Shown here piece by piece: positions 7,466 through 59,764 of a stretch of DNA of 59,826 nt. A program made the position numbers and the translations under genes. This DNA comes from Betaproteobacteria bacterium. Lineage in GTDB: Bacteria > Pseudomonadota > Gammaproteobacteria > Burkholderiales > Burkholderiaceae_D. Below the pieces are notes generated by a model that made no database searches, was not told the origin of the DNA, and saw nothing but the letters and a program-made list of their open reading frames with translations. The DNA lies in the NCBI GenBank assembly GCA_016868055.1, contig VGHX01000006.1:1-59826 (forward strand), written 5' to 3'. The number at the start of each line of letters is the position of its first letter. The first letter of the stretch is position 1.

Positions 7466-7514
7466 TTGACAATCCCGGGGCGTAAATTTTTTGGTCATTT
7501 ATCGCAATGATTTG

Positions 7515-7532
7515 ATGCAATAAAACTGTCAT
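7515..7532 (+). promoter_or_regulatory. Candidate PhoB (Pho) box
   Basis: ATGCAAT-AAAA-CTGTCAT matches the E. coli Pho-box consensus CTGTCAT-A[AT]A[TA]-CTGTCA[CT] at 15 of 18 positions by eye; 10 nt further downstream is a -10-like TACAGT (7543-7548). Confidence 0.45.
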
Positions 7533-7615
7533 AAATCACCGCTACAGTCGAGCATAGGACGGGCCTGTGCGGGGCCAACCGTGTAGCTGCAGTAACTCCC
7601 TCTTTTATTAGCCCA

Positions 7616-9172
7616 ATGTTGAAAGCGCCCGTACTCAACTTCACAGATACCGGACTGTCGGTAACTGACGGTATAACCCGAACCGGTTTGTGGTCGATCT
7701 CTACGACCTCGGATATTGGTTGGGAATATTCCCTCAACCAAGGTGCGACATGGATCATAGGACAAGGGAATAGCTTCGAGGTTACCCAGGATGGGGCACA
7801 GACGATATGGGTTAGATCTCGCGATAATGATGGGAATGTCTCTGATATTGTCATCGCAAAATGCGTGTTGGATACGCGCCCACCTAGCCCTGTTAATGCG
7901 GTTTTGATAGAACAGACTGGGGTCACTCGATTTGATCTTAGTGGCTTCGAGCAAAATGCATCGTGGGAGTATTCTTTTGACCAGGGCCAATCTTGGCGAG
8001 CTGGTATTGGTGCTAGTTTGTCCGTTCTGGGGAACGCATTTCCCAAGCTGTCGTTACGTCAGTTAGATCTGGCTGGCAATCCATCGGTGCCGACCGAGTT
8101 AGTCCTTGATAAAAATGGACGTGGCTGGCGCGAGGTCTCAAACGACCCGCTGAATCCAGATTCAGTGGGGACGCTTGACCACACGCTGCTTGTTCATGGT
8201 GAAATAGTACGCAATGATGCGGATTACTTTCGGGTCGACATTCCAGCTGACGCCAAACTGCGGGCGGCAAAATTTACCGTTTATCAATCGGCTGATGCAA
8301 TCGCCTTCTACGCGATGCAGCAGCAAGGTGTGTTTAGTGCCGGGACGGACGTTAGCAAAATGCTGGCTTTCGGTCACTTCGGGCCGGAAGACCTCGACAG
8401 AAACCTGTTGCTGTCTATACCCAGTACCACCGTCTTAACAGGTCCAGTAACAACTTGGGTGAATCAGACCGGAAGTCTGATCACGCGATACGCTCTTCAA
8501 ATGGACTTTGCGAAAAGTGGGGCTGCGGGTGATACCGCTGTCACCTCGCCGATGACTTTATCAATCAATGGCATTGGCACCAACTCCGCGAATAGCGAAA
8601 TTGTCATGGGCCAAGGACCGATTGATAAATTTGTCTATCAAGCCCCCTCCTCTGCTTACAGCATCGGCGTCATGACTGGTGGATTGACGATCACGTCGCG
8701 TAACTCCTCAGAGATAGACCGACTCACGAGCGTGGAACGAATCAAGTTTGTAGACAAATCGATTGCCTTTGACATTGACGATAACGCCGGAAAAGTTTAC
8801 CGAATCTATAAAGCAGCCTTCGGCCGTGATCCGACTCAGGGGGACCTGACAGGTCTTGGATATTGGATTTCCCAGACCGACAAAGGTATGAGCCTGCTTG
8901 AAGTTTCGGCACGCTTTATTGATTCCAGCGAATTCACGCGTATGTACGGATTGAATTCTTCAAACTCAGACTTTTTGTCCAAGCTCTACACGAATATTTT
9001 AGGTCGAAACCCAGATCAGGTTGGGTTTGGTTGGTGGCTAGATCAGTTGAATACCAACCCTGAGAAAACTCGCAGGAAGGTTTTAGCAGATTTTTCTGAA
9101 TCCCCGGAAAACAAGCAATCAGTCGCTTCTTTGATTGGGAACGGCATCCCGTATGCCGAATTTTCAATGTGA
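7616..9172 (+). CDS. Ig-like repeat protein with C-terminal DUF4214 domain
   Basis: Two WEYSxxQGxxW repeats; C-terminal tandem DUF4214 motifs (VYRIYKAAFGRDPTQGDLTGLGYWI...; LYTNILGRNPDQVGFGWWLDQL). No signal peptide at the called start. Confidence 0.75.
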   Translation: MLKAPVLNFTDTGLSVTDGITRTGLWSISTTSDIGWEYSLNQGATWIIGQGNSFEVTQDGAQTIWVRSRDNDGNVSDIVIAKCVLDTRPPSPVNAVLIEQTGVTRFDLSGFEQNASWEYSFDQGQSWRAGIGASLSVLGNAFPKLSLRQLDLAGNPSVPTELVLDKNGRGWREVSNDPLNPDSVGTLDHTLLVHGEIVRNDADYFRVDIPADAKLRAAKFTVYQSADAIAFYAMQQQGVFSAGTDVSKMLAFGHFGPEDLDRNLLLSIPSTTVLTGPVTTWVNQTGSLITRYALQMDFAKSGAAGDTAVTSPMTLSINGIGTNSANSEIVMGQGPIDKFVYQAPSSAYSIGVMTGGLTITSRNSSEIDRLTSVERIKFVDKSIAFDIDDNAGKVYRIYKAAFGRDPTQGDLTGLGYWISQTDKGMSLLEVSARFIDSSEFTRMYGLNSSNSDFLSKLYTNILGRNPDQVGFGWWLDQLNTNPEKTRRKVLADFSESPENKQSVASLIGNGIPYAEFSM

Positions 9173-9344
9173 CATGCTGCGGCGCAGGCTCGGATAGATT
9201 TCATCTTCTTCGAAACAGTACGGTGTCTCCCTTCGAGTGAGGCGTGCCGGCCTCGTTCACTGAATTTACAAACCCGGCATCAACGCGTCATCTTCACTTA
9301 ATAAAACGCTTGTACCTTCGGAAATTATCCTGACAGGAGTTGTC

Positions 9345-11051
9345 ATGACCCAAAGCTTTAGCCGTCGTGATTTTGTTATCCGACTAGCCAGCGTGTCCGC
9401 TGCATTATCGACAGGTGTAGGGTTAACTGCCTGCAGCGGCGACGGCGGCTATGCTGAATTCAACTATGGTGTCGCCAGCGGTGACCCGTTGGCTGACAGA
9501 GTCATCTTATGGACGCATGCGAGATATCCGGGTAGCGATGCAACCGTACCACTTCGGTATCAAGTCGCCTCGGACGCTGCATTTACTCAAATTATCACGC
9601 AAGGTGATACCGAGGCCAGCATCAATACCGGTCATACCGTAAAAGTTGATGCTACCGGCCTCGCCGCCGGACAAAGTTATTACTATCGATTTCTTGAGGG
9701 ATCAAACCCCTCTCCCGTTGGCATAACGCGTACCTTGCCACTGAATGCCCTGAGTGTGAAACTCGGCGTTCCTAGTTGTAGCAATTATCCAGCTGGATTT
9801 TTTAATGTCTACGCCGAAGTCGCGGCGAGTGATGTAGATCTTGTCGTTCATCTTGGTGACTACATTTACGAATATCCGGCTAATGGATATGCGTCTATTG
9901 CTGCAGAGACACTTGGAAGAGCATCAATACCAACGAATGAGCTGATTACGTTAGCTGACTATCGCCTGCGCCATGCACAATACAAAAGCGATCCAGATAG
10001 CAAGAATTTGCATGCGCGGTTAGCGATGATCAGTGTTTGGGACGATCATGAGCTTGCTAATGATGCCTACAAAGATGGGGCTGAAAATCATGATCCGGCT
10101 GCAGAGGGTTCATGGAGTAACCGTAAAGCAGTTGCCATCCAGGCTTATCACGAATGGATGCCTATCCGCTCTGGCACAGATAAAACAAAATTTTATCGAA
10201 GCTTTGACTTTGGTAAGCTGCTGAGCCTGCATATGCTTGATACCCGACTTATCGGTCGAGACAAGCAAGTTGATATAGCCTCACTTGCAGGAATCAACGG
10301 AGCGAGCGCCTATGCCTTGGCTGCTGCAGAGTTCGCCTCCCCGAATCGTCAACTGCTCGGCGTAGAACAGGTCCAATGGCTGCAGAGTAAAATTGTAGCG
10401 AGCACCGCAACTTGGCAAGTGCTCGGGCAACAAGTCCTGATGGCGCGAATGGAATTTCCGGCGTCGGTCCTGAAAGCACTCAACAGCACTGATACCTCCG
10501 CCGCTGCGCAAGCGGCAGGGCAAAAGGCGGTGACTGATTATTTAACAGCTAAAAACACGCCGGCATCATCGCGTTCTGCTGAACAGGTGGCGCTCTTAAA
10601 CGCAACGACCAATCCTAAGCTTGGGTATAACCTCGATGCGTGGGATGGTTATATTGTCGCAAGAGAAACAATCCTGGCAACTGCGCTCCAACTAGGCAAG
10701 CGACTGATTGTTCTGTCGGGCGATACTCACAATGCTTGGCACAACGATTTGACACTCAAAGGGCTGGCTAATCCAGCATTGGACGGTACGAAGGTTGGGG
10801 AAGAGTTTGCGGCGAGCGCGGTGACCTCCCCTGGCTTGGAGGACTACCTCAAGGCATTCCCTCCGCAACAGATAAAAGCCATTTTTGAAGGTGTTGTCGA
10901 CGATCTGAATTGGATGGATCCTTCGCGGCGAGGCTTCTTGAAAATGACCTTCACGCCCACGGCGGCCAAGGGTGAGTGGATCTTCGTCAGCACAGTGACC
11001 AGCAGGGCGTACACATCCTCAGTGGGATGTACGACGACGCTTCAAGCTTAA
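9345..11051 (+). CDS. phoD: PhoD-family alkaline phosphatase/phosphodiesterase, Tat signal with lipobox
   Basis: Twin-arginine SRRDFV, lipobox LTAC, PhoD motifs (FNYGVASGDPLADRVILWTH, VHLGDYIYEY, SVWDDHELANDAYKDGAENH, VLSGDTHNAW). Confidence 0.92.
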   Translation: MTQSFSRRDFVIRLASVSAALSTGVGLTACSGDGGYAEFNYGVASGDPLADRVILWTHARYPGSDATVPLRYQVASDAAFTQIITQGDTEASINTGHTVKVDATGLAAGQSYYYRFLEGSNPSPVGITRTLPLNALSVKLGVPSCSNYPAGFFNVYAEVAASDVDLVVHLGDYIYEYPANGYASIAAETLGRASIPTNELITLADYRLRHAQYKSDPDSKNLHARLAMISVWDDHELANDAYKDGAENHDPAAEGSWSNRKAVAIQAYHEWMPIRSGTDKTKFYRSFDFGKLLSLHMLDTRLIGRDKQVDIASLAGINGASAYALAAAEFASPNRQLLGVEQVQWLQSKIVASTATWQVLGQQVLMARMEFPASVLKALNSTDTSAAAQAAGQKAVTDYLTAKNTPASSRSAEQVALLNATTNPKLGYNLDAWDGYIVARETILATALQLGKRLIVLSGDTHNAWHNDLTLKGLANPALDGTKVGEEFAASAVTSPGLEDYLKAFPPQQIKAIFEGVVDDLNWMDPSRRGFLKMTFTPTAAKGEWIFVSTVTSRAYTSSVGCTTTLQA

Positions 11052-11376
11052 ATACGAAAGATTTATTCCGACGACGTGAGTGGCAAGGCCCAAAAAATTA
11101 AAATAATAGCAATAATGATTGTGTGATTTCGCTTTGACAGCTGCCTCGTAAATGCTAACCACTCATCGGTTCGAACGGTGGCTGCAAGCTTCGGGTAGCT
11201 GCTGTGCCCCGCCTGACTCCGCTTATTTAGCAATTAAGCTTGGAAATCAAACTTTATTGCCAATTGTTTTAAGTGCTGATGTCCGCTAACCTATAGCGGA
11301 TTATTAACTTGCTGGCAAAGACCTGCCCCGTCGAACGAGTGATGTGTCGACGAGGTTTTGCGGATTCTGGAGTCCA

Positions 11377-56122: not shown

Positions 56123-57184
56123 CTAGCTGGCGGAGGGCGGATTAGATCGAGACAGCACCATCACAATATTGCCCAGCAGCTCGTCATCCACCGAGGCCGC
56201 ACCCGGTGCCTCCCAGCAGCCGCTGAAGTAGCAGGCTTGTACCCTGCCGCCGGCGGCGGCGGTAAACGCTAGTAGCTCACGTACGCCGAATTCACGATGA
56301 TGAAAATGCGCATCCCAGTTGCCGCCGCTGGTTGGGTACACCTCTTGCGGGTTAATGCGTTGCGCGATCTTCGACATAGTCTCGCCCCGAAAAAAATTCG
56401 GTGTCGTCAGGTAGAGCACGCCATCATCGCTGAGTAAATCCAATAAAAACTTCAGCAGCTCAACCGGATGAACAAGCAGATGCTCCAGCACCTCGCAAAA
56501 CAAAATATGCGTATAGCGCGGCAACCCTTCAGCTAATGCTGTAAACGACTGCGGCGCCTGTAAATCAATCGTGTGAAATGTACTTGCGCCCAGCTTATGC
56601 TTGGCAACCTCTGCAGTGAAGCCAATATACTCAGCAGGCACCGGGCGATCGGCGATCGCCAAGCTCGCCCCCGGAAAAAATCGACGATAAAGGATACTGA
56701 AATCAGAGGCACCAAACTCGAGCAGGCGTGCATCTGCCCTGCCCGCACCCAGCACAGCCAGCGCATTCATCGTTTCAAAAAAACGCCGCTGATGCGTCAC
56801 ACCGTATTCGTCTTGCCCAATGATTAGTGCGTGCGAGGGGTTTTCAAATACATCGCGCCAAGCAGTCACATAATCATCCCAGCGCACCGAATCACGCGCT
56901 GCAAGCACCTCAGAAAGTTGGCGCACCGCCGGGGGCAACGCCAGCGGCGCCGCGGTACTACGCTGCACAGCGTCAGCGGCCAACTTGCCAGACAAGGCAA
57001 GAAACTCATCTGACTTCATCAAACTGCTGAGCAATCCTTCCGCGGTCAGTTGCCCCGAGCGGAGCTGCGCGGTGTAGTTTGCCAAACCCTCCGCATCAGG
57101 CACGCGATGCAGCACGCAGCGATACGCTAATTCAACCAGCTCGGTGTGACGTGACTTGTCAGCAGAAAAAAACGTACGAAGCAT
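56123..57184 (-). CDS. DUF4214-methyltransferase fusion protein
   Basis: N-terminal DUF4214-like VELAYRCVLHRVPDAEGLANYTAQLRSGQLTAEGLLSSLMKSDEF; C-terminal methyltransferase (LLEFGASDFSILY; ILFCEVLEHLLVHPVELLKFLLDLLSDDGVLYLTTPN). Confidence 0.8.
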   Translation of the reverse strand: MLRTFFSADKSRHTELVELAYRCVLHRVPDAEGLANYTAQLRSGQLTAEGLLSSLMKSDEFLALSGKLAADAVQRSTAAPLALPPAVRQLSEVLAARDSVRWDDYVTAWRDVFENPSHALIIGQDEYGVTHQRRFFETMNALAVLGAGRADARLLEFGASDFSILYRRFFPGASLAIADRPVPAEYIGFTAEVAKHKLGASTFHTIDLQAPQSFTALAEGLPRYTHILFCEVLEHLLVHPVELLKFLLDLLSDDGVLYLTTPNFFRGETMSKIAQRINPQEVYPTSGGNWDAHFHHREFGVRELLAFTAAAGGRVQACYFSGCWEAPGAASVDDELLGNIVMVLSRSNPPSAS

Positions 57185-57240: not shown

Positions 57241-58407
57241 TTATGTCGATGCGCTACGTGATAATCCCAGCGGAACCACCTCCACCGCCTCGCGTAAGGT
57301 ATCGCGGCTCAAGTGTGCGTAGCGGCTGGTGGTACGAATATCTGCATGCCCAAGTAGTTGCTGCACCTCGTACAGACTGCGGCCCGCATTGACCAAAAAG
57401 CTTGCAAAGCTGTGACGTAGGTCGTGAATACGAAACTCTGGTAGGCCAGCCCGCTTACGGCAGGCATCCCAGCTATAAAAAATTGAAATAAACGGCTTAC
57501 CCGTCGCCGGGTTGGCAAAAATATGCTGCCGGCCTGGCACCGCTTTTAGCAGCAGCTCATTTAAGACACGCAGCGCCTCAGCTGATAAAGGAATGTAGCG
57601 AATTTTTCCTGACTTGGTTTTCGGGATACGCCACAGGCGCTGTTCAAAATCAATATCGGCCCAGGTCGCATCAAGTACTTCGCGTTTACGCGCGCCCGTC
57701 AAAATCAAAAACCGAATAATTGAACCGAGCATTGGATTTGGGCTGCACTGAATTTCTTTTAGCAAGGTTTCGCACTGCAACGGCGTCAGGTAACGCTCGA
57801 TACGATTATCATCACGCAGGTTGATCAATTCTTTTGCAGGGTTCTGTACCAGACCGCCCACCCGCCAGCGCTCCGCCAACCTGAAACCATAGCGCAACAA
57901 CACTAAGAACCGGTTACACGTACCCGGCGCATAATCCGCCGCACGCCGCGCTGATACTGCATTCGCAATATCCTTTGGCATCACCTCAGACAACGCCAAG
58001 CCACCCAGCCTGGGAATGATGTGATTACGTATCAAAGACTGATCCGTATCCCAGCTCCGTTTATAGCTGTTTGCGTAGGGAATGTAATGCTCAGTAAAAA
58101 ATTCGCTGACTGTCAGTAATGGCTGCGGCGCAGTGGTCGGTAATACGCTACTACCCGCCTTGAGATCGCGTAAATACTGGCGCGCCGCTTCACGCGCCTC
58201 ATCAACCGTCATCACGCGCGCATCACCCAGCGTGGTGACTCTGGCTTTGCCATCCACCCTGTAGCGCAAACGAAAATTCATACGCCCGTTACGCAATAGG
58301 TCTACATAAAAACCGCGAATCAAAGCATCGAATAGCTCAAGGTGCGGCTTATCCTGCGGGCAGCAGATCTGTGACAGTAGCTCAGTAGTAAGAACCTGCG
58401 ATGACAC
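57241..58407 (-). CDS. Tyrosine recombinase/integrase (copy 1, GTG start)
   Basis: Catalytic set R (TGARKREVLDA), K (KTKSGKIRYIPL), HDLRHSFAS, LLGHADIRTTSRYAHL. Confidence 0.94.
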   Translation of the reverse strand: MSSQVLTTELLSQICCPQDKPHLELFDALIRGFYVDLLRNGRMNFRLRYRVDGKARVTTLGDARVMTVDEAREAARQYLRDLKAGSSVLPTTAPQPLLTVSEFFTEHYIPYANSYKRSWDTDQSLIRNHIIPRLGGLALSEVMPKDIANAVSARRAADYAPGTCNRFLVLLRYGFRLAERWRVGGLVQNPAKELINLRDDNRIERYLTPLQCETLLKEIQCSPNPMLGSIIRFLILTGARKREVLDATWADIDFEQRLWRIPKTKSGKIRYIPLSAEALRVLNELLLKAVPGRQHIFANPATGKPFISIFYSWDACRKRAGLPEFRIHDLRHSFASFLVNAGRSLYEVQQLLGHADIRTTSRYAHLSRDTLREAVEVVPLGLSRSAST

Positions 58408-58516: not shown

Positions 58517-59764
58517 TTAGCGAGAGGTTTTCGTCGTTATGGTGTCGTTGTCGATTGTTTGTACGTCTTCAGTTTCAATGATACCGATTGTCGATATTTT
58601 TTCTGAAGCGCCAAGCATAAATTCTGATGAAGCCGCATTGACCGCCGCGAGCAAAGTCGCATTACTAAGATGTGCATAGCGCTGCGTCGTCTTGATCTGT
58701 GTATGCCCGAGAATCCGCTGCACCTCATACAGGCTACGCCCTTGATTGATCAGCATGCTCGCGAAAGAGTGACGCAAATCATGGATACGTACCTCAGGCA
58801 AGCCCGCGCGGCGGCGGGCCGTGTCCCAGCCGTAGTACATCGAAACAAAAGGCTCGCTGGTGTTCGGGTTCGGGAAAGTCCAGACACAGTCAGGTAAGCG
58901 AGGCACCGAAGCCAGCAACGACAGCGCCGCCTCAGATAAAGGAATATGGCGCGCCCTGCCCGACTTTGGCAAAGGCACTCGCCATAATCGGCGTGCAATA
59001 TCAAAATCTTCCCATTTAGCGTCCAACAACTCTCGTTTACGTGCACCCGTCAAAATCAACATCGGTATGATGTACTTCAACATCGTATTGTCGCTACGGC
59101 ATACCGCATCATATAAAGCATGCGCCTCGTCTGCCGACAGATAACGCTCGCGATGATTATTTTCCTCGAGCAGCTTGACGCCCTTGGCCGGATTTTTACT
59201 AATACCCGGCGTTTCCCATTTCAGCGCAAGGTTGAAGATATAGCGCAATAAAATCACCAATCGATTCGCACTACCCGCGGCCGCACCTGCTGCGCGACAC
59301 TGCTGATGAATCTGAAAAACATCATCGCGAGAGATATCATCCAAATAGCGCTGACCCAGCTTGGGCAGCAGGTGATTCTTCAGCAAACTGACATCGGTCT
59401 GGCACGAGCGCTTGTAATGCCGCGCGAACGGCAAATAGCTTTGCTCAACAAATTCGGCAAACGTAGGCACCTGGCGTTTGACCACGCGCTCCGTTGCAGG
59501 GTCTTCACCCATCGCTATTCGGGTACGCACTCGCTCGGCCAGCAGCCGTGCTTGCGACAAGCTCACCTCGTCGGCATCAGCCAGCCGAAACTGCCGCGTC
59601 TTGGCGCGCGCGTCTTGGTAGCGCAGGTAATAGGTCTTGCGGCCGCTGCTGCGCACTTCCAGCATCAGCTTGCGGGTGTGGGTATCGAATAGGTCAAGCT
59701 TGCGTTTGTCATTTGGACAACGCGCATCGCGCACCACCGTGGGCGTCAGTGTCAGACTTGGCAT
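58517..59764 (-). CDS. Tyrosine recombinase/integrase (copy 2)
   Basis: Catalytic set R (TGARKRELLDA), K (LPKSGRARHIPL), HDLRHSFAS, ILGHTQIKTTQRYAHL; strong GGGAGGGGG-type SD before ATG 59764. Confidence 0.94.
   Translation of the reverse strand: MPSLTLTPTVVRDARCPNDKRKLDLFDTHTRKLMLEVRSSGRKTYYLRYQDARAKTRQFRLADADEVSLSQARLLAERVRTRIAMGEDPATERVVKRQVPTFAEFVEQSYLPFARHYKRSCQTDVSLLKNHLLPKLGQRYLDDISRDDVFQIHQQCRAAGAAAGSANRLVILLRYIFNLALKWETPGISKNPAKGVKLLEENNHRERYLSADEAHALYDAVCRSDNTMLKYIIPMLILTGARKRELLDAKWEDFDIARRLWRVPLPKSGRARHIPLSEAALSLLASVPRLPDCVWTFPNPNTSEPFVSMYYGWDTARRRAGLPEVRIHDLRHSFASMLINQGRSLYEVQRILGHTQIKTTQRYAHLSNATLLAAVNAASSEFMLGASEKISTIGIIETEDVQTIDNDTITTKTSR

Follow-up and report, generated by a model that had tools for sequence, protein, structure and literature searches.

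The phoA, phoB, and pstS promoters of Escherichia coli have in common a pair of CTGTCAT-like repeats of 7 nt, separated by 4 nt, with the -10 hexamer another 10 nt on. The place of phoD within the Pho regulon is already known, as is the control of RTX-type exoproteins by PhoB. In Synechocystis, an RTX/type I cluster is established to be under the control of PhoB, and its RTX protein is reportedly the most abundant one in the low-phosphate exoproteome (PMC11126600), and in Pseudomonas putida BIRD-1 a type I secretion adaptor was up in the phosphate-responsive proteome (PMC5082522). A phosphatase gene adjoining a type II secretion system (T2SS) is found in the Hxc/Xcp systems of Pseudomonas, and T2SS export of phosphatases in that genus is known (cited in PMC5082522). 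Among the papers searched, none joined PhoD, a Pho box, and Betaproteobacteria.

Here, we analysed 59,826 nucleotides of a Betaproteobacteria bacterium of the Burkholderiaceae_D (contig VGHX01000006.1, forward strand), referred to as the window. Between gspC and dadA, it carries the following features:

7466–11244, no strand: putatively acquired block of about 3.8 kb between gspC and dadA
7515–7532, plus strand: candidate PhoB box of two CTGTCAT-like direct repeats with an 11-nt period, before the DUF4214 gene, the best site of the window on the genus PWM and the 34-bp model
7543–7548, plus strand: -10 hexamer TACAGT, exactly 10 nt past the box
7616–9172, plus strand: gene for a DUF4214 protein of 518 aa, with an N-terminal Ig-like/Asp-box part and a C-terminal RTX-like beta roll and helical DUF4214 domain
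9274–9291, plus strand: second, weaker candidate PhoB box CCGGCATCAACGCGTCAT, 15.4 bits, at -71 of phoD
9302–9307, plus strand: -10-like TAAAAC, 10 nt past the second box
9345–11051, plus strand: phoD, for a 568-aa PhoD alkaline phosphatase/phosphodiesterase whose sequence includes the Tat motif SRRDF and the lipobox LTAC

Overall, we interpret the block as a horizontally acquired, PhoB-controlled unit of a phosphatase and an exoprotein, in which the T2SS would have no special part (probability about 0.78). Both gene calls of a preliminary description of this DNA hold, and its proposal of a phosphate-starvation output locus appears to be a good reading, in view of the candidate promoter at 7515, the probable additional promoter of phoD, and the presence of a pst-phoU-phoB-phoR cluster elsewhere in the genome.

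This cluster is located on contig C23, which carries both pstS and pstC-pstA-pstB-phoU-phoB-phoR (pstA assigned by position and order). The phoB product scored 290.8 bits, just below the cut-off of 296.2 but within the cluster, and phoR reached 408.7 against a cut-off of 334.2. With the genus PWM, no box was detected at the phoB locus itself; that of the cluster lies at pstC. Divergent Pho boxes serving the polyphosphate kinase gene ppk1 and pstS were also observed between these two genes (C23; L136 17121–17186), a layout that recurs across the genus. Further Pho boxes lie at C23:16750–16880 (L136 8757–8874), flanked on one side by an olsB-like acyltransferase gene and on the other by a small Lys/Ala-rich gene, beyond which phoX, a metallophosphatase gene, and an MGDG-synthase-like gene are found. 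This olsB-like/phoX region is a probable Pho-regulon cluster for lipid remodelling and phosphatases.

Two trained models were applied to the window. The genus PWM was trained on 28 pstS/ppk1 boxes, which are recurrent in the genus, while the 34-bp model, comprising box, 10 nt, and -10, was obtained by expectation-maximisation from the sequences upstream of phoD in other genomes (70 regions), with the window excluded. These regions revealed the motif.tGTCAT.....TGTCATa..c.ct..cTA..aT at a median position of -69.5, and a seed lacking the -10 led to the same motif as the seeded 34-bp fit. With the pstS/ppk1 PWM alone, the best forward site fell at -95 to -55 in 53 of 69 phoD upstream regions (reverse strand: 17), and it was followed by 10 nt and nAnnnT in 51/69 (reverse strand: 14). 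Among phoD orthologues, TAnnnT thus regularly follows at a distance of 10 nt. On the 34-bp model, the E. coli phoA, phoB, and pstS promoters scored 21.7, 22.7, and 21.9 bits, respectively, with best reverse-strand scores of 3.1–9.1, and the pstS, ppk1, and pstC boxes of the genome under study scored 24.0, 22.7, and 19.4 bits. The genus PWM gave 25.6 bits for pstS and 22.5 for ppk1, both of them among the training sites, and 16–20 bits for the boxes between the olsB-like gene and the phoX side. Since the olsB-side boxes score only 13.7 bits and less on the 34-bp model, this model does not capture all PhoB sites.

The box at 7515 scored 20.8 bits on the 34-bp model, the highest score of the window on either strand, and is close to the E. 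coli promoters, from which it differs in its degenerate upstream repeat (ATGCAAT; the second repeat is perfect) and in being a candidate known from its sequence. Rank 2 in the window on the same model is held by the box at 9274, which had been overlooked in the preliminary description. Scores of at least 15.4 bits are expected by chance 4e-4 to 8e-4 times in the gap before phoD, though about 16 times per genome. Most phoD orthologues have a box near -70, so that the 9274 site lies at the orthologous place. Based on the score and controls of the 7515 site and on this orthologous position, the DUF4214 gene and phoD probably each carry a PhoB promoter of their own.

Alternatively, the 7515 box might drive both genes as an operon, with the 9274 site as a decayed remnant, an arrangement that we regard as possible, though rather unlikely. 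The second site is far weaker than the first, its -10 TAAAAC is poor, and the 172-nt gap between the DUF4214 gene and phoD contains a single terminator-like element, which is weak; shuffled sequences contain terminator-like elements at no lower density. However, the rank and the orthologous location of the 9274 box argue for a promoter of its own, and both the length of the gap and the strong phoD ribosome-binding site (AGGAG at 9335–9339) fit an independent gene. The RNA fold of the gap was no better than that of shuffles.

Less probable still, and in our view quite improbable, is that the match at 7515 is a coincidence and that the DUF4214 gene is not regulated by PhoB, with either phoD alone or neither gene responding. 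Here, the yardstick matters. The sequence ATGCAATAAAACTGTCAT at 7515–7532 on the plus strand agrees with the E. coli Pho-box consensus CTGTCATAWAWCTGTCAY at 15 of 18 positions, i.e., with three mismatches, and TACAGT follows at exactly 10 nt, both as described previously. By this bare consensus the site is unremarkable, and counting alone is not decisive: 162 sites with at most three mismatches to the core occur across the 2.7-Mb genome, and of 100 shuffled versions of the window, 13 contained at least one match to the full consensus at three mismatches. Moreover, no comparable box was detected at the other DUF4214 genes examined in this genome and its relatives (maximum 11.5 bits). On the trained models, unlike on the bare consensus, the site is beyond chance. 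In the scan that had been suggested earlier, it scored 15.05 bits on the genus PWM, compared with 25.6 for the genome's own pstS, and was the top site of the window (runner-up 10.96), and across about 450 kb of the same genome no intergenic site attained 14 bits and two sites within coding sequence scored above 15. On the 34-bp model, at least 20.8 bits are expected 0.007–0.012 times in the window (both strands) and 0.3–0.6 times in the genome, and functional E. coli boxes with the same -10 spacing score about equally. Altogether, the scores make it very likely that 7515–7532 is a Pho box of the functional type. A 34-bp IUPAC pattern, to which the 7515 site was the sole exact match genome-wide, was discounted, as it had been modelled on the site and misses the pst boxes of the genome. 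The preliminary description had also suggested looking at the conservation of the DUF4214-phoD pair in relatives; the pair was found nowhere else, which leaves the 7515 site without an orthologue for comparison.

The PhoD protein revealed both family domains at full length (PF09423, 341.7 bits, 2–343/343; PF16655, 96.9 bits, 2–90/90), matches to PDB entries 9uya and 2yeq (Bacillus subtilis PhoD), and conserved motif stretches. In contrast to described members of the family, it scored 305 of 1000 bits and thus under the NCBIfam PhoD equivalog cut-off, and it is a predicted Tat lipoprotein, based on SRRDF at residues 6–10 (by inspection) and the conserved lipobox cysteine; the two arginines and this cysteine are conserved in nearly all orthologues compared.

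With regard to its origin, the block has a GC content of 50%, compared with 56% for the window. Its 3' border is sharp at about 11245, while its 5' border could be placed only to the end of gspC. The genus backbone restarts at 11245 in four relatives (G146, 96%; G201; G179; G168), and those relatives whose contigs extend over the region have dadA directly after gspC, an order broken by the block. No phoD was found in 20 of 20 other genomes of the genus that were searched, several of them incomplete, and no Pho box in the gspC-dadA gaps of four relatives. In the tree, the PhoD of the window grouped with those of Limnohabitans and Hydrogenophaga (Comamonadaceae; 95/93), apart from the PhoD of its own family. 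The simplest reading is that phoD was acquired from a Comamonadaceae-like source, and the shared position of the two genes suggests that the DUF4214 gene arrived with it.

The preliminary description had further linked the locus to the adjacent T2SS, a link that did not stand, as the block appears to be an insertion and neither the phoD loci of other genomes nor the gsp genes provided a connection. That PhoB controls the gene pair and the T2SS exports both products, as in Pseudomonas Hxc/Xcp, is very improbable: although gspD-E-F-C directly adjoin the pair, phosphatase export by a T2SS has the Pseudomonas precedent, and a Tat signal alone would be compatible with later T2SS export, the gsp genes are kept in the genus without the pair, neither gsp genes nor a DUF4214 homologue lay beside phoD in any of 80 loci of other genomes (several of them short), no Pho box preceded the first gsp gene in three relatives (the start of the gsp operon in this genome lies off the contig), the lipobox of PhoD is conserved, and the DUF4214 protein has no evident Sec or Tat signal. 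The lipoprotein signal of PhoD does not strictly exclude a T2SS, but nothing speaks in favor of one, and unlike in Pseudomonas, neither regulation nor synteny nor export signals gave evidence of a link here.

The DUF4214 protein carries its name-giving domain at residues 433–502. By inspection, its N-terminus displays no evident hydrophobic signal, and no clear ribosome-binding site was found before its ATG, unlike for phoD; hence, the gene is possibly poorly translated or 5'-truncated. Structure prediction was reliable only from about residue 325, with a beta roll followed by a helical domain, whereas the N-terminal 320 residues mostly had a pLDDT below 50. A PDB sequence search resulted in no matches. 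In the fold search, the roll matched RTX lipases, and the best matches of the helical part were phycobilisome linker domains, which are distant (TM by target about 0.48). For the DUF4214 domain (8912–9121), the best hits to the phycobilisome linker family PF00427 were 8imk at E 2.4e-4 and 3osj at a TM of 0.48 by target. A distant kinship of the two is possible, and DUF4214 might then be understood as a module that binds proteins.

Over its last 200 residues, the protein can be aligned with paralogues; three of those encoded in this genome have RTX repeats (PF00353), which Pfam did not detect in the protein itself. In the close relative G146 (C70), two DUF4214 genes flank a cluster for two ABC proteins (one called as PrtD-type by NCBIfam), HlyD, and an outer-membrane efflux protein, and contig C84 of the genome studied here displays a similar DUF4214/type I arrangement with two ABC proteins and an outer-membrane efflux protein. 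Around this C84 cluster, the best sites scored 14.4–14.7 and could not be assigned to a verified promoter, so that they are not claimed as PhoB sites here. The proteins scanned in the window included none of type I secretion. The protein resembles RTX-type type I substrates with a C-terminal DUF4214 domain in its lack of an evident signal, its RTX-like roll, and paralogues beside type I genes, but it differs from them in having no Pfam RTX repeat. On these grounds, type I export is the best guess, and the protein would most likely leave the cell by this route via its RTX-like/DUF4214 C-terminus. In relatives, DUF4214 C-termini were observed fused to apparent serralysin-, trypsin-, and cyclophilin-like passengers (by inspection). 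The window itself encodes a DUF4214-methyltransferase fusion (56123–57184, minus strand), whose architecture is not of the secreted type and which adjoins two tyrosine integrase genes (57241–58407 and 58517–59764).

Taken together, at low phosphate PhoR, the gene for which is present together with phoB, would phosphorylate PhoB, and binding of PhoB to the box at 7515–7532 would bring sigma-70 polymerase to the -10 TACAGT for transcription of the DUF4214 gene. The weaker box at 9274–9291 would probably be bound by PhoB as well, so that phoD would be transcribed separately from the DUF4214 gene; some transcripts reading through from the upstream gene are possible in addition. PhoD would leave the cytoplasm by Tat, be anchored as a lipoprotein, and liberate the phosphate bound in organic phosphoesters. 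Lacking an evident N-terminal signal, the DUF4214 protein would most likely be exported by type I secretion via its C-terminus and may act at the surface or outside the cell, e.g., in adhesion or substrate capture. The neighbouring T2SS would have no special role, the block having merely been inserted beside it. In comparison with the Synechocystis cluster, which includes type I secretion and acyltransferase genes, the DUF4214 gene is paired with phoD here.

On this reading, the block would be a clear example of how a Pho-regulated phosphatase was gained together with promoters that fit the PhoB of its host, and it would place a candidate phosphate-starvation promoter before an exoprotein of the DUF4214 family, on which there is almost no literature. 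More speculatively, and in our view doubtfully, the block may be a mobile one in which PhoB acts through two separate promoters. Its products would then be a phosphatase anchored at the surface and an Ig-like/DUF4214 exoprotein that leaves by type I secretion and works as its partner, either by binding organic phosphorus or by keeping cells attached to it. If true, this would be the first physiological context for a DUF4214 protein.
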